A stretch of DNA of 64,000 nucleotides from Loxodes magnus (Eukaryota > Ciliophora > Karyorelictea > Loxodida > Loxodidae): the NCBI GenBank assembly GCA_946699065.1, contig CAMPDV010000455.1:1-64000 (forward strand), given 5' to 3'. Each line of letters opens with the position of its first letter. The first letter of the stretch is position 1. The notes below the pieces were generated by a model. That model was given only the letters and a program-made list of their open reading frames with translations, searched no databases and was not told the origin of the DNA. This document shows positions 3,541-49,824 of this stretch, piece after piece. The position numbers were made by a program, and so were the translations under genes.

Positions 3541-4272
3541 TAAAGTTAAAGTTAAAGTTAAAAAGCTTTGTTAAAGCCTTAGTAGTCAGCCATCTGAACT
3601 ATTCTATCAGCTTGTCTCCATTAGTTTGTCATGAATTCCTACTAGGCTTAGTTAGGTGGTATAGCCCTTCATTAGTGCACCATCCTTTAATATTCTGAAT
3701 AATTATAGTCTTGCATGTAGCGTTCCTCATTATTTCTCCAAGAGTTAAGATTTGAATTAAAGAATTTTTTCTTTAAATTTTTCTGCTTTATGTTGGATAT
3801 ATCCTAAATAGTTTTTAAAAAATATCTTATTTATTCTTTCTTTAAATTTCGCTTAGTTAGTAGCAGTATTTTCATTGGTGTTATTTATTGCACACGTAGC
3901 ATTTTATTCTTCTTTTAAACTATTATTCCTGCAACCCTTATTTAATTTAAATTTACTACTTATTTTAAATAAACGTTTACTGTTTATTTTAATTTGAGGC
4001 TTCATTTCTATTTCCATAAGATCTGATTAATTCAGTTAAAACGAAAATGGTGTTACCTGAATTTATTATTAAATTTAAAGAATTCTTGTTCCAGTTTGTT
4101 TTTTATTTCTTATGATGATTAATATTGTTTCTCAAGCAAAGACGTTACTAATTTTTCTAATTTTTCTACTTTAGCAGTGAGGTATATATTTTGGAACATA
4201 AACTATTTTAATGACTTAGATAATATTTCTATTTTAGTTTGTGTTCGAAGTTTTTTTAATTCTGTATTTCCA
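3541..4272 (-). mobile_element. zinc-knuckle retroposon G1, 5'-truncated copy
   Basis: Reverse complement of about 85% of the complete G1 element at 48785-49615, nearly identical over the shared part. It begins abruptly at the AGAATTAAAAAAACTTCG point, so the 5' end is truncated. It ends in AGGCTTTAAC followed by about three TTTAAC units (3545-3565). It keeps the CX2CX3HX4C knuckle (CYVCNKQHQWKYC), where TGA encodes the Trp. A truncated 5' end and a short tandem 3' tail are the marks of target-primed reverse transcription, so I infer a LINE-mobilised element lacking its own reverse transcriptase. Confidence 0.75.
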
Positions 4273-4302: not shown

Positions 4303-5202
4303 ATGGAAGGATTCAAAAGAAGTTTCTATACCACCTCCAAAAAGTTGGAGAGGAAACTTGAATCCAATCTTGGATAGTCTTCTTACCCTTAACCCTAATC
4401 TTTTTCTTAATTCTTACAACCTGAAGAGGAACAGAAACAAGCTAAGAAGACAACACATGAGATAATTCCAACCTCAGAAGAGAAGCCCAGAAAGCAGATG
4501 AAGTCTGCTCTGCACCAGGAGGTCTCAAAGTTCAATCCTTCTGGCCAGATGAGCATGGAACAGCTCATCAAAGTGGTACTAAACCTCCAGGAAGAGGTTA
4601 GGAAACTGAGAAAGGACAATGAGAAACTGATGGAAAAACTCAACCTAGCGGAAGGAATAGAATCCAGACTTATGTCCTAAGAAAGAGAACTAAGTGCTTT
4701 CTGAAACATATCTTAAGAACAGAGTAGCTAATCCTAAAATTAGCTTCAGAAACAATCTGATCTGAGTATTAGACTGGAAATACTAGAAAAGAAATTAGAT
4801 GAACAAAGGGGAGATCCAATGATGATTGAAGAGACCAATAGGAAGACTAATGTTAAACTCCAAAAAGTAGTGAAGAAATGTTACTACTGCAATTCGACAG
4901 AACATTTATGAAGACGCTGCAAGGAATTCCAAAAATTTCAAGACGTAGTACTGGAATAAATAAAGAACCATACAAGCACAGTAGAGGAAGAAAAAAAAAT
5001 GTAGTAGAGGCAAATAAGAGAAAGATTATACTTAAATGAATAAGGATACATTTACAAGAGAAAATTTAATTAGAAATAAGGCTAGATCCTGAAATGACAA
5101 GAGTAATGGGAGGAAAGAGGAGTAGAGACATCTAAAACTTGATTTTTAACACTGGAGCAATCTGGTGTCCAGCATGAAGAGGTGAAAATCCTCGAAAATT
5201 GC
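4303..5202 (+). CDS. gag-like CCHC zinc-knuckle protein G2 (retroelement ORF1-type)
   Basis: From ATG 4303 the frame runs past 5200 without change of phase. It holds an N-terminal Ser/Gln/Pro-rich region, a coiled coil (about residues 80-135, e.g. EEVRKLRKDNEKLMEKLNLA), then CYYCNSTEHLWRRC at about residue 193, a CX2CX4HX4C knuckle in which TGA supplies the Trp. A charged C-terminus follows. Related to the decayed copy at 21614-22490, which shares the coiled coil and the FWNISQ motif. Known: CCHC knuckles bind nucleic acid in retroelement Gag/ORF1 proteins. The true end is unclear because the frame stays open to about 5470; similarity to the second copy stops near 5200. No reverse transcriptase follows it. 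Confidence 0.7.
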
Positions 5203-11087: not shown

Positions 11088-12602
11088 TCAGTCAATTCTT
11101 TTTAATGCTATATAGCTCAAATTTACTAAGTCGATCTTTAATATTGAATCTCTATCTTATTCAAATGCAAAAACATATCCAAACTTATTTATTACTTTCA
11201 TCTCTGTTAAAGCAAAAACAATTTTAAAAATTTATCTTTATTCTCATTATTCTTTGTTTCTTTTATATATTCTTCTTGAATATTCTTCTGTTTAAATATT
11301 TTTAATACCTCCAATTATAACTAAAGGTTCTAAGCACACTATAGGTCAAGCGACAGCTTCAGGAAGATTCAAATCACACTTACTCCATCTATCATTCTAT
11401 ATTTTATACTTTCATATATCTTTCTAAGTTTATCCTTTCTAATTTCATCCTCCAAAAGAATAAATATTTTGTTCATCTTTATCTACTACTAATGTTTAAT
11501 AAGTTATTTAAAAAGGAAATTAAGAACAGTTCTATCATTTATTTTCATTTCCTATTTTTAATTTTTCTACTGATTATAAGAAATATCCCTGTCTTATAGC
11601 ACCTCCAACTACATAAATGTGTTCTTAAGCTGCTGCTATTCCCAATCCAAATCTTCCTTCATTTAGATTACTAAGTCTTTTACTATTACCTCCATAATCA
11701 ATCTATCAAGTTTCTTTTATTCCTTAATCCTATTTTCAAGATGTTCCTCCAATTAAATATAACTTGCTTTAATATTCTATATTATTAGCTGATAAGGGAA
11801 TTATATTTTAAATTTTTACTTGCTGTAGCTATTCTTTTTCGATATTAAATAATCATAAATTTTTAGTTTCTTACTAAAAATAGTGAATATACATAGAATT
11901 TTTTAACTTTTATTATGTTTAATTTATATTTAACTAAACCATCTTTTATTCTTATAGATTTATATTTTCTTATAGTTTCTTTCTTATTAGTGAGATGTAA
12001 TTTTAATTTATTAAATTTCTAAGTAAAAGTATAAAATTTTATTTTTAAGTTTATAAGATTTTAATGTTTTAATTTTATTACTTTTATATCATTTATTTTT
12101 AGTCTAAATTTTATATTTCAAAAATACTTTTTAAATTTAATTTAGAAATTATATTTCTATCTCTTATTCAATTCTATAAGATATTTATTTTCTAATCTAA
12201 ATAAAAAACACTTTAAGATTATATTTCTTTATTCCTAAGATTACTTTATACTATTAAGTTAATAAGTAACTTACTAATATTTTATTATTTCTTTGTAATA
12301 GTAAAAGCTTTTTCTATTATTTACCTCTATATATCTTTTAACTTCTATTTAGTATTCTAACCTTTTTATATTTATTATTCTTTCTCTTATATCTTTATTA
12401 TTATATCTGTATCTTTAGGTAAATCTTCAAACTTAAAATGGTATACTTTCTCACAAATAGGACAAGACATTAATCCTTATAATCAGTACTGAGTATTCAA
12501 ACATAAACCACAGTAAATATGTCCACAAGGTAAGACAGTTGGAAGAGCGTTAGTTAAGTTGTAATCTTCCAAGCAGATTAAGCATTTTGGTAAGGCTTAC
12601 AT
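11088..12602 (-). CDS. RING finger - coiled coil - kelch protein, copy 1
   Basis: ATG 12600-12602 to TGA 11088-11090 gives 505 codons with no phase change. Residues 7-50 form a C3HC4 RING (C7, C10, C26, H28, C31, C34, C47, C50; CLIC...PCGHIYCGLC...CPIC). A Gln/Lys/Ile-rich helical linker follows to about residue 265, then kelch repeats with GG pairs and spaced Trp (YLIGG, YVVGG, YSFGG, VIIGG). Many Trp are TGA: W40 in the RING, GGWN, DIWKYK, AVAWPIV. Known: RING domains recruit E2 enzymes and kelch propellers bind substrate, so a ubiquitin-ligase role is a reasonable inference. One of six related loci here. Whether the final TGA is a true stop is inferred from copy comparison; another TGA follows six codons later. 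Confidence 0.85.
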
Positions 12603-17620: not shown

Positions 17621-19137
17621 TCAAACTTTTTATTAAGAGTTTATTTTTTAATCTTCTATATATTTTCCGTTTAGAAATTTTCCTTATAAAATCTCTCCAT
17701 TTATTTTTTTAAAAATTCCAGTTCCATATTTTTTTCCATCTTTCCATTCATCTTCATACATATCACCATTTGCATAATAGTAAATTCCTTTACATGTTTC
17801 TTATCATTTAAATAGTCTCCTACATATTTATCTCCTTTGCATTCTCCATGCTATCAAATAAAAGTTCCCTTTCCTTGTCTCTATCCGTTCATATATTACC
17901 CCTCATATCTATCTCCATTGTTTCATGTAAAGATTCCACATCCACTTTTTTAATCTTTTATCCAATCACCTTCATATTTATTTCTATTATAAAATTTCAT
18001 TGTTCCGTAACCATCACGTTTTCCCTATCTTCAATCACCTTCATAAATGCTTCCTTCATTAAAATAATGAATTCCTTTACCGTGTTGCTTGTCTTCATAA
18101 AAATTTCCGACATATTCATCACCTTCGTTTGGCTTTCCAAAAGTCAAGGTTCCGTGTCCTTGTTTTGTATCGTTTACAAAATATCCCTTATATATGCTTC
18201 CACTTTTTCATGTTTAAACTCCATATCCATTTCTTTTTCCGTCTAATCATTCACCTTCATAGGTGCTTCCTTTTTTAGAATAAAATGTTCCTGTACCTTA
18301 CATTTGCCCATTAAAAAATTCACCAACGTACTTATCTCTTTTCCAAGGATCTTATCCTCAAACAAAAACTCCTTTTCCTTATCTTTTGTCATTTACAAAT
18401 TATCCTTTGTATTTATCTCCATTCTATGATATAAGTATTCCGTTTCCTTATCTCTTTCCGTTTATTCAATCACCTTCATAAATTTATTAATTTGCATAAA
18501 ATTGAACTCCGAAACCTTCTCTTTCTTCATTACAGAATTAACCTATATATGTTTAATCTTTTTGCTTTTTTTATTTTTATATGTAAACACCTTATCCATC
18601 CATTTAGTTTAAATATCATTGTCCGTTATACTCATTGCCAGATTTCCATATATAATGCCCATGTCCATGTCTATCTAATTTTCCTTTTATGATAAATCCT
18701 GTATATAAATCTTTTTAATATCTTTTATTTTGTACATATTCAACTTCTTATTACTTATAATAGTCATAGAAATTATTTTCTTACTTGAAACTTTTTAAAG
18801 TTTCTTCAAGTTTTTCATTGAAATAGTCAATTTTTTTTGTATTTTCTTCTTTTGGATCTACTTTATTTTATATCTCTTGAGCAAGTTTTTATTTTTATAC
18901 TTACTATATGTTTTAATTTTATGTAAAAGTGATTTCTTCATGAGAAAACATCGGAGGAGGTAAATAATAATCACTATCAATATCTTTTTAAATTTAATAA
19001 GTATTCTTTTAATACTCTTCTTCACTTTATATATTTTCGAAATTTTGCTTTTTTGAGGACTGGCTAACAACTGTTTAAAATTATTCATCAACACTCTAAT
19101 TTTAGTTTCTTTTTTTATTTGATTGACAACAACCCAT
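17621..19137 (-). pseudogene. MORN-repeat protein, unit 1 copy with a 1-bp frameshift
   Basis: Same gene as 44784-46301. ATG 19135-19137 (MGCCQSN..., a likely N-myristoylation/palmitoylation signal), then an acidic N-terminal region, a helical stretch, and about thirteen MORN repeats (Y.G.W..G...G.G type). TGA supplies Trp and TAA/TAG supply Gln inside the repeats. Compared with unit 2, one base is missing near 17791 (TTCCTTTACATG against TTCCTTTTCCATG), so the last two repeats are out of frame. The span is 1517 bp instead of 1518. A base-call error in this copy would also explain it. Known: MORN proteins often tether structures to membranes. Confidence 0.85.
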
Positions 19138-23113: not shown

Positions 23114-23875
23114 ATGAAAAAAACACCCAAAAATGATAATCTCCAAACTAGACAAATGAAATATAATAAGAAATACAAATCGATCTTTAGCATCTATAAA
23201 ACGAAAATATTAAACTCTAACTGATAGTCTAAGAATTTTCAATATAGTCTGTGTTCTAATTTAGCAAATTGATTAACTGAAACAAGAAAAAATGGATTAA
23301 AATAAGATATTATAAGTAGACCTTCAGATCAGCAAATAAATTAATTAATTCAGCAGACCGAATAAAGATTACAGAGAATAATTTTTGAAAAGAATTAGGA
23401 AATGTAAAATAAGATGAATTATGATTCCATGGAAGTAGAGACAGAGAGAGAGAAATAAATTAAGCACTGTTTTATCATGGGAAAGGCTATAATAAGGTGC
23501 TGATACTGTAAGAAGCAAGGTCATAAGGTAAGAAACTGTCGGAAATTTAGGAAGAAAGAAAAAAAGAACGAAAGACATAAAATAAAATATTTAGAATATA
23601 ATGCACAAAAGAAGCAAAATTATATAGAAGGAAAGAACAACTAATCCTTTAAACAATATATCAAATACTAATGGAAGCAAGAGAATGAAAAAAAGACAAT
23701 ATGGATTTGATATAGAAAAGTTTATGAAGGTAAGTCTCAGCAGATGTAAGAGAAAGAAAGAATTATTTAAAGTTTATTCCGAAGAAAATTATTATTGAGA
23801 ATTAACTATCTTCATAAACTAATATGTGTCAAGTCAAATAAAGAATTTCACAGTAATAAAATATTACTTTAATTA
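23114..23875 (+). CDS. gag-like CCHC zinc-knuckle protein G3
   Basis: One frame from ATG 23114. Basic N-terminus, Gln-rich helical middle (RPSDQQINQLIQQTEQRLQR), an acidic patch, then CWYCKKQGHKVRNC at about residue 129, a perfect CX2CX4HX4C knuckle whose Trp is TGA. A Lys/Arg-rich C-terminal region follows (IWIWYRKVYEGKSQQMQEKE). Same layout as G2 and G4 but not close in sequence, so a separate element family. The stop cannot be placed: coding character ends near 23875. No enzyme domain follows. Directly preceded by the AT-rich repeat. Confidence 0.65.
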
Positions 23876-31862: not shown

Positions 31863-34800
31863 ATGACAAAAATAGATTTTCCTCCTATACTAATAAAAGG
31901 ATATAGGATATACTTTAGAAATGCTGGTAAAGGAGAAGGCGTAAGCTTGATTATTAAAGATGAAATAAATAGTACTGAATCTATAGTAAATATAGAAACC
32001 TAAAATCGATTTGTTTCAGTCAAAATGGAAAATATATTAATCACATCTTGCTATATGCTAGAAAATAATAAAAGTAGTCTTATTAAAGATTAAACTTATG
32101 ATTATATTAATACATATATTGGATAACTTCCAAATAATCCTCATATTGATAGGAGACTTCAATGCTCTATTATAAAATTACGGAAATAATACTAAAAAGA
32201 TTATGATAACACATCTAGATTTTAATAATTCTTGCAATAAACGATCTTTAAACAGTTAATAATACGATTAGTAATACATGCATACACAAAGAAACGGGAA
32301 AATAGTACTGTAATGACTATATTTTAATTAGAAGTAATTTAAATAATAATTAATTTGTAAATTTTTAGGTTCCCAATGACTGCTTAAAAACTGATCACAT
32401 TCCAATTACAATTAACTTTTTGTTTAATACAAAATATTATGATGATGATAAAATAATTTAGAGAAAATATTAAATTAATCGTTTGTAAGATCTAATTGAT
32501 AGATAAAGATATTAACAATGATTTATACAAATTTGTAATGAATTCTTTCAAATAGATAGAAATTATTTAGAGTAATATACATGTACATTAGCAGAAACAT
32601 TCAAGAAAACGCAGATTCAGAACTAGGATCATTTATTCCTGATCCTAAATAAAACAAACTTCCTTAAAATCTTGCAAGAAAGTATATAGATACGAAAAGA
32701 GCTAACTAAGAGTATAAAGAAACTCAAATTTATTTTGGAAGAATTAATTAATAAGTCCTTAATCTTTTGGATCAGCTAATAAACTTCGAAATAAATACAA
32801 ATATCATCTATGAAAATGGTTAAAAGATTAAGCAAAGAAGAAATTTCTAAATCTTAATGAAGAACCAAAAATTATGTTTTCACAAGCGAAAAAGATTCTT
32901 AACCCAAAAATGAGAGACCAACGGAACTTTAATTAAGAGCTTAAAAGCCAATTCATTGATTCATGAGAGAACTTTGTTTTTAACAAGCATTAAAATCTTA
33001 CTTAGTAAATACCTTCCTATTTACAAGAATTTAAACTCTTTATGATTTAAGAAATTTAAGAAATTATTCAATAAATCCCTAATGGAAAAGTAGCTGATCC
33101 AGATGGCATAAAGGGAGCATTATTAAAGTATGGAGGCTATTATCTTACTTTGATTCTCCATTCTTTCTTGAATAATATGCTGAGGTTAGGTAGAATACCT
33201 GAAGAACTTAATACGTCAATCATTATTCCTATATTTAAAAAAGGAAGCAAAGATGAGTGGAAAAATGGGAGACCTATTTCTTTGATGAATTCTATACTAA
33301 AAATATATGATAAAGCTTTAACTAAAAGGTTATATGATTAAATATATAAAAGAAACTTAATTCATGAAAGCTAGATAGGATTCATGAAAAGGAAATAAAC
33401 TACTATTCAAATTTTGACAAAATAGTAAATAATAGAATTTATCGCAAATAAGCAAAAAGGGAAGACAAAACTCCTTGCCACACTAATAGATGTAGAGAAA
33501 ATGTTTGATACTATAGAAAGAAGATTGCTTTTCGTTTAACTCAGGAGAGTCAAGCTACCTTTAGGACTTATAAATGCCCTTGAATCTATCTATAAAAACA
33601 TAAATTCCTCCTTTCTTATAGATGGAACTTTATCAAGAAAGATAAAATACAATAATGGAGTTATGTAAGGTAGCTCACATAGTTCAGTGCTTACTTTGCT
33701 GTATTATGATATTGTAATAAGATATTTAGAAAGTAAAAGTAACATAATAGGATTCAAATGTAATACTATTGGCAGAAGCTTCGCATGCAGAGGATGGACA
33801 GATGATCTAATTCTCCTATCCAAAACTGAAAAGTCCATGCAGATTTTAATGAATGAAATATAAAAAGTATCTGAATGAACTTAATTGAATATTAATACTT
33901 CAAAATGTGAAGTTATTTAATTCTTAAAAAAGAATCAAAAAGAAGTTAAGTTAAACTTAAAAACAAAAGGCAACCAAATTATTTAGAAGTAATAAGTAAC
34001 ATATTTAGGAGTAATTCTTTATCAAAAAAAGAACCTAATTAATCACTGCAAATCGGTTTTAATTAATTATCTGTCTGCTATGAAATGAGACACCTTGACA
34101 TTTTAAGACTTTGTGCCGAATGTTCACGCTTCCTAAAGCAGAATATGGAGGAGAATTAATACCTTGAGCAATCTAAAATGGAGTTACTGGCATAATAAAT
34201 AAAATTGATAAAAATATGAGATTAATAGCAAGGAAAGCCTTCTAAGCATCTGAAAACGCTTTTAATGAGCCCTGTAATATAGATTTTAACTGAATGCCAT
34301 TTAAACATATTAAGGCTTTGAGGTTTTTTAGATTTTTTTATAAAATAAAATAAGAAAATATTAACCTTCCGTAATCAACATTAAGAACTCTCTTTATGAT
34401 AATTGATAGGAAGGACATTAATATAGAGATTAATTAACAAGATTATCTGAATACTACAAAATTGACTTTAATAATTAGGAACATAATAGTAGCTTAACTA
34501 CCTTTACGAAATATGTAAAGAACTAGATTCAACATAAATTCCATAAAGTAACTTAGTAAAGACTTAAATGTATGCCAACTGCAAAGATTTTTATAGAATA
34601 ATTTTGTTATTAACGATAATTCCCAGAAATTACCTATCCGAAACTAAATAAATAATATAGAAAAGAAATAATCAGCATATACAAACTCAAAACCTAAAGC
34701 TACAATTTTCGGAAAGATCTTCAAGACAGAAATTACTTTATCGAGAATCCTCATTGCATCTGCGGAGAATTGGACAAGTTCCAACATATTATGGATTGCA

Positions 34801-44783: not shown

Positions 44784-46301
44784 TCAAACTTTTTATTAAG
44801 AGTTTATTTTTTAATCATCTATATATTTTCCGTTTAGAAATTTTCCTTATAAAATCTCTCCATTTATTTTTTTAAAAATTCCAGTTCCATATTTTTTTCC
44901 ATCTTTCCATTCACCTTCGTACATATCACCATTTGCATAATGGTAAATTCCTTTTCCATGTTTCTTATCATTTAAATAGTCTCCTACATATTTATCTCCT
45001 TTGCATTCTCCATGCTATCAAATAAAAGTTCCCTTTCCTTGTCTCTATCCGTTCATATATTATCCCTCATATCTATCTCCATTGTTTCATGTAAAGATTC
45101 CATATCCACTTTTTTAATCTTTTATCCAATCACCTTCATATTTATTTCTATTATAAAATTTCATCGTTCCGTAACCATCACGTTTTCCCTATCTTCAATC
45201 ACCTTCATAAATACTTCCTTCATTAAAATAATGAATTCCTTTACCGTGTTGCTTGTCTTCATAAAAATTTCCGACATATTCATCACCTTCGTTTGGCTTT
45301 CCAAAAGTCAAGGTTCCATGTCCTTGCTTTGTATCGTTTACAAAATATCCCTTATATATGCTTCCACTTTTTCATGTTTAAACTCCATATCCGTTTCTTT
45401 TTCCGTCTAATCATTCACCTTCATAGGTGCTTCCTTTTTTAGAATGAAATGTTCCTGTACCTTACATTCGCCCATTAAAAAATTCACCAACATACTTATC
45501 TCCTTTCCAAGGTTCTTATCCTCAAACAAAAACTCCTTTTCCTTATATTTTGTCATTTACAAATTATCCTTTGTATTTATCTCCATTCTATGATATAAGT
45601 ATTCCCTTTCCTTATCTCTTTCCGTTTATTCAATCACCTTCATAAATTTATTAATTTGCATAAAATTGAACTCCGAAACCTTCTCTTTCTCCATTACGGA
45701 ACTAACCTATATAGGTTTAATCTTTTTGTTTATTTTATTTTTATATGTAAACACCTTATCCATCAATTTAGTTTAAATATCATTGTCCGTTATACTCATT
45801 GCCAGATTTCCATATATAATGCCCATGTCCATGTCTATATAATTTTCCTTTTATGATAAATCCTGTATATAAATCTTTTTAATATCTTTTATTTTGTACA
45901 TATTCAACTTCTTATTACTTATAGTAGTCATATAAATTATTTTCTTACTTGAAACTTTTTAAAGTTTCCTCAAGTTTTTCATTGAAATAGTCAATTTTTT
46001 TTGTATTTTCTTCTTTTGGATCTACTTTATTTTATATCTCTTGAGCAAGTTTTTAATTTTATACTTACTATATGTTTTAATTTTATGTAAAAGTGATTTC
46101 TTCATGAGAAAACATCGGAGGAGGTAAATAATAATCACTATCAATATCTTTTTAAATTTAATAAGTATTCTTTTAATACTCTTCTTCACTTTATATATTT
46201 TCGAAATTTTGCTTTTTTGAGGACTGGCTAACAACTGTTTAAAATTATTCATCAACACTCTAATTTTAGTTTCTTTTTTTATTTGATTGACAACAACCCA
46301 T
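44784..46301 (-). CDS. MORN-repeat protein, intact copy
   Basis: ATG 46299-46301 to TGA 44784-44786, exactly 506 codons. MGCC at the N-terminus fits N-myristoylation (G2) with palmitoylation of C3/C4. Residues ~10-130 are acidic and Gln-rich (KDIDSDYYLPPPMFSHEE), then about fourteen MORN repeats to the end (GEWLDGKRNGYGVQTWKSGS; GKGTFIWQHGECKGDKYVG). Trp in FTWNNGD and FIWQHGE is TGA, and Gln in EGQYMNGQRQGKG is TAA/TAG, so this gene is the best single proof of the code. Known: MORN repeats bind phospholipid or act as scaffolds, and ciliates have many; membrane attachment is inference from the N-terminus. Confidence 0.9.
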
Positions 46302-47469: not shown

Positions 47470-49824
47470 AACTTATCCATTCTTTAATGGCTATATAGCT
47501 CAAATTTACTAAATCAATCTTCAACATATTATTCATAAGCAAAAACATATCCAAACTTATCTCTTACTTTCATCTCATTTAAAGCAGCAACATCTTTAAT
47601 TTATTTTTATTCTCAATATTTTTTGTTTCTTTCATATATATTTCTTGAAAAGTCTTTTGTCGAATAATTTTTTATACCTTCTAGTTTTATAAAAGGTTCT
47701 AAGCATACTATAGGTAAAGCAACAGCTTCAGGAAGATTCAAATCATACTTATTCCAACTATCTCTCTAAATATTATACCTTCATATATCTTTTAAAATTA
47801 ATCTTTTCTAATTTAATACTCCAAAAGAATATATGTTTATTCACTTCTATCTACTACTAATGTCTAATTAGTTATTTAAAAAGGAAATTAAGAACAGTTC
47901 AATCATTTATTTTCATTTCCTATTTTTAACTTTTCTACTGATTATAACATCTGTCCATTTCTAGAAGCACATCCAACTACAAAAATGTGTTCTTAAGCTG
48001 CTGCTATTCCAGATCCAAATCTTCCTTCATTTAGATTACTAAGTCCTTTGCAATTACCTTTGAAATCAAATTATCAAGTTTCTTTTATTTCTTAAAGTTA
48101 ATTTTAAGATTTTCCTCCAATTAAATATAAGTTATTTTAATATTCTATACTTCTACTTCCTAAGGGAATTATATTTTAAGATTCTACCTGTTATATTTAT
48201 TTTTTTTCAATATAAAATATTCATAAATTTTTAGTTTAAAACTAAAAAAAGTGAATATACATAGAATCTTTTAACTTTTATTATGTTTATTTTATTTAGT
48301 TTATATTTAACTAAACCATCTTTTATTCTTATAGACTTATATTTTCTTATAGTTTCTTTCTTATTAGTGAGATGTAATTTTAATTTATTAAATTTCTAAG
48401 TAAAAGTATAAAATTTTATTTTTAAGTTTATAAGATTTTAATGTTTTAATTTTATTACTTTTATATCATTTATTTTTAGTCTAAATTTTATATTTCAAAA
48501 ATACTTTTTAAATTTAATTTAGAAATTATATTTCTATCTCTTATTCAATTCTATAAGATCTTTATTTTCTAATCTAAATAAAAAACATTTTAAGATTATA
48601 TTTCTTTATTCCTAAGATTACTTTATACTATTAAGTTAATAAATAACTTACTAATATTTTATTATTTCTTTGTAATAGTAAAAGCTTTTTCTATTATTTA
48701 CCTCTATATATCTTTTAACTTCTATTTAGTATTCTAACCTTTTTAGATTTATTATTCTTTCTCTTATATCTTTATTATAAAAAAATGGCTTCTAAGAAAT
48801 AACAGAACTTTGAACAAAACATTTAAACAGGAAAATTCTCTAAAAAATAAAAAAGCGAAATAATTACAATGAGTGAAAGTGAGAAATATGATTGATATGA
48901 CGAACATTAACCACTTGAAAATCCAGAATTAAAAAAACTTCGAACGCAAACTAAAATAGAAATATTATCTAAGTTATTAAAAGAGTTTATGTTTAAAAAT
49001 ATATACCTCACTGATAAAGTAGAAAAATTAGAAAAACTAATAACGTCTTTACTTGAGAAACAATATTAATCATCATAAGAAATAGAAAACAAACTGGAAC
49101 AAAAAATTCTTTAAATTTAATAATAAATTCAGGTAACGCCATTTTCGTTTTAACAGAATTAATCAGATCCTATGGAAATAGAAAATGAAGCCTCAAATTA
49201 AAATAAACAGTAAACGTTTATTTAAAATAAGTAGTAAATTTAAATTAAATAAGTGTTACAGGAATAATAGTTTAAAAGAAGAATAAAATGCTACGTGTGC
49301 AATAAATAACACCAATGAAAATACTGCTACTAACTAAGCGAAATTTAAAGAAAGAATAAATAAGATATTTTTAGAAAACTATTTAGGATATATCCAACAT
49401 AAAGCGGAAATATTTAAAGAAAACAATTCTTTAATTCAAATCTTAACTCTTTGATAAATAATTAAGACTACATGCAAGATGAAAACTATTCAGAATATTA
49501 AAGGATGGTGCGCTAATGAAGTGCTATACCGCCTAACTAAGCCTAGTAGAAATTCAAGACAAACTAATAGAGACAAGCTGATAGAATAGGTCAGATGGCT
49601 GACTACTAAGGCTTTAACTTTATTATATCTGTATCTTTAGGTAAATCTTCAAACTTAAAATGATATGATTTCTAGCAAATAGGGCACGACATTAATCCTT
49701 ATAATCAGTACCGAGTATTCAAACATACACCACAGTAAATATGTGAACAAGGTAAGACAGTTGGAAAAGCGTTAGTTAAGTTATAACCTTCCAAGCAGAT
49801 TAAGCACTTTGGTAACGCTTACAT
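47470..49824 (-). pseudogene. RING - coiled coil - kelch gene, copy 4, split by a retroposon
   Basis: N-terminal part 49620-49824 (ATG 49822-49824) keeps a full RING (PCSHIYCGVC, MSCPIC); the rest (47470-48777) keeps the linker and kelch repeats. The zinc-knuckle element G1 (48778-49617) interrupts the linker at about residue 65. Without the insertion the two halves join as in copy 1. Several kelch positions are damaged as well, so it was probably free of constraint. The C-terminus differs from the other copies: no TGA at the usual place. Confidence 0.75.
48785..49615 (+). CDS. zinc-knuckle retroposon G1, complete copy (ORF only)
   Basis: One frame of about 277 codons fills the whole insertion, from ATG 48785 right at its left end to the final GGCTTTAAC. 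N-terminal acidic region, coiled coil (NIYLTDKVEKLEKLITSLLE), a Gln-rich segment (largely TAA/TAG), the knuckle CYVCNKQHQWKYC (CX2CX3HX4C, one residue shorter than usual; Trp by TGA) and a C-terminal ADRIGQMADY. Flanks: TTTATTAT to the left and TTTATTAT to the right fit a short target duplication. Related copies at 2611-3200 and 3541-4272. No reverse transcriptase, so it must be mobilised in trans. No stop codon is visible inside the element. Confidence 0.75.

Follow-up and report, generated by a model that had tools for sequence, protein, structure and literature searches.

The window analysed here, a stretch of 64,000 nucleotides of Loxodes magnus DNA (assembly GCA_946699065.1, contig CAMPDV010000455.1, positions 1 to 64,000), carries a MORN-repeat protein gene at 44784..46301 on the reverse strand. 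With TAA and TAG taken as Gln and TGA as Trp, its frame runs from ATG to TGA over 506 codons (505 residues and a last TGA), 36 of which are TAA, 7 TAG and 9 TGA (8 internal ones and the last). The translated gene scored 209.4 bits against the Pfam MORN model (PF02493), and a search of the protein collection with a threshold of E <= 0.001 retrieved 3,158 homologues (120 of them listed); an earlier sequence-only reading, according to which a fragmented sequence is thereby turned into an intact 505-residue MORN protein, was borne out. Under NCBI tables 1 and 4, no stop-to-stop frame of at least 150 amino acids was listed for the 64 kb (frames running off the ends being excluded), and both tables were rejected for the window, in which a standard-code gene finder would see no frame of 150 amino acids. 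Translation with table 6 yielded 219 stop-to-stop frames of at least 150 amino acids, many of which must be spurious, since a GC content of about 22% makes TGA rare. A codon-usage gene finder, which was poorly trained, served only for choosing frames. The window is best explained as macronuclear DNA that follows NCBI table 27 (probability about 0.96), with TAA and TAG probably translated as Gln by cognate tRNAs and TGA serving as Trp inside genes and as stop at their 3' end.

For the column test, every TAA, TAG and TGA codon of the MORN gene was masked as X, the masked protein was aligned to the 120 homologues listed, and the aligned residues were tallied. The homologues had been retrieved with the Gln/Trp translation; the alignment was therefore blind, the choice of homologues was not. 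For seven of the eight internal TGA codons the column contained 10 or more aligned residues; these seven columns were compared with 294 other columns as background, TGG columns being excluded. The mean Trp share was 0.339 in the TGA columns and 0.021 in the background, and the value of the TGA columns was reached in 0 of 100,000 random draws of seven columns. By log-odds, Trp ranked first (14.8, compared with 9.5 for Phe), and in a calibration with masked sense codons 16 of 20 returned their own amino acid in first place. Trp was the commonest residue at codons 224 (YEGD[W], 45630..45632; 18 of 31 residues), 297 (YEGE[W], 45411..45413; 39 of 97), 369 (YEGD[W], 45195..45197; 116 of 232) and 405 (FT[W]NNGD, 45087..45089; 100 of 321), all on the reverse strand like the codons that follow. 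It tied with Tyr at codon 428 (FI[W]QHGE, 45018..45020; 80 of 280 each) and stood behind Phe (5) and Tyr (4) at codon 260 (GVFV[W], 45522..45524; 3 of 24) and behind Tyr (35) at codon 310 (45372..45374; 16 of 94), while codon 174 (45780..45782), with two aligned residues (Leu and Met), had too few to test. When eight residues were tried for TGA, the Pfam MORN score was highest with Trp (209.4 bits), followed by Phe (202.6), Tyr (189.8), Leu (184.8), Ser (177.6), Cys (167.9), Arg (157.0) and Gly (145.5). These comparisons support the reading of TGA as Trp inside the MORN gene. TGA had previously been placed at the Trp of the repeats, with random columns named as the contrary outcome, and the columns proved to be enriched for Trp rather than random.

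The end of translation was followed in genes located across the whole assembly (705,730,643 bases, 7,843 contigs). All nine matches to histone H4 in the genome end in GFGG-TGA. Both eRF1 genes above the family cut-off, L021 (C196:19698-20912) and the very similar L022 (C196:54601-55812), end in DEDFL-TGA and have extra in-frame TGA codons within six codons after the stop; no TGA was found inside either eRF1 match. A third eRF1 match, on contig C2, was weak and fell below the cut-off. None of the 11 H4 and eRF1 genes, a small sample, ended in TAA or TAG, and in the two genes examined for it the GC content fell after the stop. The MORN gene and the kelch-repeat gene of the window (11088..12470, reverse strand, 460 codons and TGA) also fit a TGA end. 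In the MORN gene the last TGA (codon 506, 44784..44786, reverse strand) is best read as a stop, since it is followed by an AT-rich trailer, the GC content changing from 27.3% in the coding sequence (CDS) to 6.7% in the 60 nt behind it; across 11 paralogues its column holds TGA in six and TTA in three, is gapped in two and never contains TGG.

With 11 of 11 H4 and eRF1 genes ending at TGA, the sequences fit table 27, not table 28, and support a code in which TGA probably acts both as Trp inside genes and as terminator. The view that all three canonical stop codons are sense codons stood, but it had missed that TGA is also the terminator, as the ends of the H4 and eRF1 genes and MORN codon 506 show, so that the code is not one without stops. 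One rival is the code of Condylostoma magnum (table 28), in which each of the three triplets can end translation as well; it resembles the present case in that all 64 codons have a sense meaning and position decides the stop, and with just 13 gene ends inspected (nine H4, two eRF1, one MORN and one kelch) an infrequent stop at TAA or TAG could have gone unnoticed. However, TAA and TAG terminate in Condylostoma, whereas TGA closes every H4 and eRF1 gene here and is compatible with the MORN and kelch ends as well, so that a code of this type is very improbable.

Support for assigning TAA and TAG (TAR) to Gln comes from the eRF1 and H4 genes found elsewhere in the genome, as well as from its tRNA gene set. 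In eRF1 copy L021, 13 TAA and 7 TAG codons stand at Gln, including those of GGQ, FGTLQGN and SQEGSQF, which the alignment shows to be common to human eRF1, and the eRF1 model TIGR03676 scored 405.1 bits with TAR read as Gln, 400.0 with Glu and 398.7 with Lys. In one H4 gene the Gln of KRQGRTLYGFGG is encoded by TAG, and TAG or TAA lies within the match of three more H4 genes. The long interspersed nuclear element (LINE) of the window has TAR at two Gln of its reverse transcriptase that are common to LINE-1 ORF2 (sQiGF and mQGs). For the tRNA genes, matches to a pattern were counted genome-wide and compared with those in a control: tRNA-Gln(UUA) gave 251 matches (control, 83) and tRNA-Gln(CUA) 92 (control, 29), with two loci of each confirmed by ARAGORN, whose tRNA-Gln label follows the chosen ciliate code setting. 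Matches to tRNA-Gln were also found in tandem arrays (contigs C214 and C130).

Several observations weigh against the table 27 reading. TAA occurs 3, 4 and 9 codons upstream of the terminal TGA of the MORN gene, a position at which UAA is generally depleted in L. magnus genes, as stated in an excerpt of PMC11441545. The Pfam MORN score is almost the same for TAR as Gln (209.4) and as Glu (206.3), and in the masked column test Gln came first at 13 TAA columns with Glu close behind (6.1 and 5.1), while at five TAG columns Ala was first and Gln fourth. The MORN gene alone cannot separate Gln from Glu; the earlier statement that TAA and TAG fall at Gln thus gains nothing decisive from this gene and holds by virtue of the eRF1 and H4 columns and the tRNA-Gln(UUA) and tRNA-Gln(CUA) genes. 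The kelch model PF24681 scored 53.8 with TGA as Arg, 48.8 with Leu and 48.6 with Trp (69.5 for Trp with flanks included), and Glu exceeded Gln for TAR in PF24681 (73.3), Kelch_4 and Kelch_1. Among the kelch copies, TGA is exchanged with TTA in 15 pairs, with TGG in 13 and with TAA in 6, the pairs not being independent. Finally, several MORN paralogues are frameshifted, and the ratio of non-synonymous to synonymous substitution (dN/dS) of the MORN gene was 0.86 and 1.16 in comparison with two near-identical copies, which differ by very few changes; frameshifts and ratios near 1 for two young copies together indicate that the MORN family is partly decaying.

Of these points, the closeness of Glu to Gln, or its lead, in several MORN and kelch tests would suit a Blastocrithidia-type code (table 31; TAA and TAG as Glu, TGA as Trp), which also shares an eRF1 changed at Ser70 (PMC12153298, in excerpt). 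Against it stand the TAA and TAG codons at the GGQ Gln and other invariant Gln of eRF1, the better score of the eRF1 model with Gln, the H4 gene with TAG at its Gln, the naming of the cognate tRNAs as tRNA-Gln by ARAGORN (under the setting mentioned above) and the terminator, which is TGA here and TAA there; residue 70 of eRF1, moreover, is Gly in Blastocrithidia and Ala here. We consider this alternative hardly credible. No more credible is the proposal that an over-lenient reading ignored the stops of decayed or non-coding AT-rich DNA. The frameshifted paralogues and the near-neutral dN/dS of the two young copies speak for this proposal, but it is opposed by the placement of TGA at Trp columns (0 of 100,000 draws), the whole-gene frame kept in the copies C287a, C287b and C130, a dN/dS of 0.56 in comparison with the diverged copy C130 and the same TAR rule in eRF1 and H4.

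The preferred reading, table 27, agrees with the karyorelict code of Loxodes and Parduczia in every respect compared (TAA and TAG as Gln, TGA as Trp inside genes, no stop observed other than TGA, the presence of a LINE in the window and AT-rich trailers) except for the TAA codons close to the stop of the MORN gene, the sole difference found. The karyorelict-type code proposed from the sequence is in fact already published for L. magnus: an excerpt of PMC11441545 gives NCBI table 27 with UGA as the only stop, a GC content of 33.5% in the CDS and 18.6% in the 3' untranslated regions (UTRs), and a macronuclear genome with many LINE-type elements and AT-rich UTRs. Introns of about 17 nt are a further trait of the macronuclear genome of L. 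magnus. The code in the window is thus a described code in a published genome, and the raw sequence confirms an extreme form of the genetic code.

In mechanistic terms, TAA and TAG would be read by tRNA-Gln(UUA) and tRNA-Gln(CUA), the genes of which are present. By analogy with published work on Condylostoma and Blastocrithidia, internal TGA would most likely be read by a tRNA-Trp(CCA) that lacks the top pair of the anticodon stem. Where a gene ends, ahead of the AT-rich trailer, eRF1 would win and TGA would terminate, as the stop position in the H4 and eRF1 genes indicates. That nearness to the poly(A) tail or 3' end, with a short AT-rich 3' UTR in between, would decide the outcome is taken by analogy from a published model, in which decoding by the tRNA is the default and eRF1 prevails close to the end of the transcript (PMC4967479, in excerpt). 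In human numbering, with positions counted from the alignment, the eRF1 of L. magnus differs at residues of stop recognition, with Ala for Glu55, Gln (TAA) for Ser60 and Ala for Ser70, and has Phe for the Tyr of YxCxxxF; the excerpted part of PMC12153298 includes Ser70 among its sites and gives Gly for Blastocrithidia.

For tRNA-Trp(UCA), 59 pattern matches were found genome-wide (control, 46), and ARAGORN, applied to 30 of these 59 loci, detected no tRNA in any of the 30. The strict pattern for tRNA-Trp(CCA) returned 127 matches, of which 124 have an unpaired position 27.43 and thus a 4-bp anticodon stem and three have a 5-bp stem. All 124 carry 43C (control, 0), and the 100 of them that were listed have 27A or 27U (48 on contig C67 and 52 on C148); with the strict pattern, no match with 27G pairing 43C was obtained genome-wide. 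They form tandem arrays, one at C67:482313-491186 (forward strand, 27A.43C, unit of about 187 bp, flanking GC content of 23%, as in the window) and one at C148:155454-169431 and perhaps beyond (27U.43C, unit mostly of 241 bp). The three 5-bp matches, with a paired 27U-43A, lie on contig C110; one of them (L094), with an unusual T-loop, is perhaps a pseudogene. A looser pattern gave 132 matches (100 listed; control, 20). The strict patterns, on which the predominance of the 4-bp form rests, may miss divergent 5-bp genes.

The mismatches in the C67 and C148 arrays differ, yet both leave the position unpaired, as if the unpairing itself were kept; it may also be that both 43C forms descend from a single ancestor in which position 27 changed afterwards. 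A special amplification of the tRNA-Trp arrays was considered and dropped: a tRNA-Cys(GCA)-like pattern, applied without ARAGORN, gave 166 matches (control, 2), so that 124 is not exceptional. A 4-bp-stem tRNA-Trp(CCA) has been reported for Loxodes (excerpts of PMC13092985 and PMC12005148, both citing Swart et al.) and raises UGA read-through in reporter systems (PMC13092985, same excerpt). In Amoebophrya sp. ex Karlodinium veneficum, only one of seven predicted tRNA-Trp(CCA) genes has a 4-bp stem (PMC12005148, same excerpt), in contrast to 124 of the 127 strict pattern matches here. That the 4-bp form makes up nearly the whole set of tRNA-Trp genes found is possibly new. Tentatively, and with doubt slightly outweighing confidence, we suggest that the tRNA with the unpaired stem constitutes nearly the whole tRNA-Trp set rather than a minor suppressor, so that one tRNA would read both UGG and UGA and termination would be set wholly by eRF1 and the 3'-end context. 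The tRNA gene set of the same assembly offers a concrete and testable picture of one codon as both Trp and stop.

Relatives of the MORN gene recur on contigs C287, C589, C1043, C869 and C130, and a further paralogue lies within the window (17788..19137, reverse strand), covering codons 1-450 of 505 before its frame is lost. A full-length open frame is present in C287a, C287b and C130 as well as in the copy at 44784-46301. In the copies L009-L013 (contigs C1043, C869 and C589) the frame breaks down around codon 190, and so it does in L014 as judged from a split match. Over 11 comparisons, dN/dS ranged from 0.30 to 1.16; C130 is the sole well-diverged copy. Its identity was 63% in a contig search in which the MORN gene itself reaches just 90%, stops apparently being counted as mismatches. 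Internal TGA codons hardly vary among the paralogues: C130 keeps seven of the nine TGA codons of the MORN gene, has TAT and TAA in place of the other two and TGA in place of one TGG (codon 465), and C287a has one TGA changed to AGA.

Further kelch copies are located near 36.2-37.7, 47.4-48.9, 56.0-57.5 and 61.1-62.5 kb on the reverse strand and near 20.1-21.1 kb on the forward strand. The kelch motif FGGwN (w = TGA) is present, and the Trp of NDRWSK is TGG in five of six copies and TGA in one. Among eight readings of TGA, Trp was the best in Kelch_4, Kelch_1, Kelch_6 and PF24981, and Gln exceeded Glu for TAR in Kelch_6 and PF24981; a homologue search gave four weak matches. The rule that had been extended to the kelch repeats was accordingly upheld for the motifs and in four models but not in PF24681, which prefers Arg or Leu, and Glu prevailed for TAR in three of five models.

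The reverse-transcriptase domain of the LINE (RVT_1; 33243..34019, forward strand) is related to LINE-1 ORF2, and the motif SEWTQLN previously named for it was found as SEwTqLN at 33870 (forward strand). When 10 other frames of the window, a minor part of its six-frame translation, were compared with Pfam, nothing beyond RVT_1 emerged, and Rfam and ARAGORN gave no match in the window. The three zinc knuckles reported with TGA at Trp (HLwRRC, CwYC and QwKYC) were all located on the forward strand: CYYCNSTEHLwRRC at 4879..4920, CwYCKKQGHKVRNC at 23498..23539 and CYVCNKqHQwKYC at 49289..49327, its QwKYC starting at 49313 and recurring at 3877 on the reverse strand. Further motifs resembling zinc knuckles, in which TGA or TGG encodes a Trp, occur on the reverse strand at 3877, 13946, 25505, 50357 and 58151; perhaps, as a guess, these further motifs are remnants of LINE ORF1.

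A satellite with a unit of about 850 bp (L075-L079 on C140, L084-L089 on C454) contains a decayed tRNA-Trp-like piece (in L084, in L087 and, on the reverse strand, in L075), which is without the 3' side of the anticodon stem, has TTCA in the loop region and is not called as a gene by ARAGORN. Within the window, segments comprising kelch and MORN sequences (10-20 kb, 35-48 kb and 56-63 kb) recur at spacings of about 25-27 kb and less.
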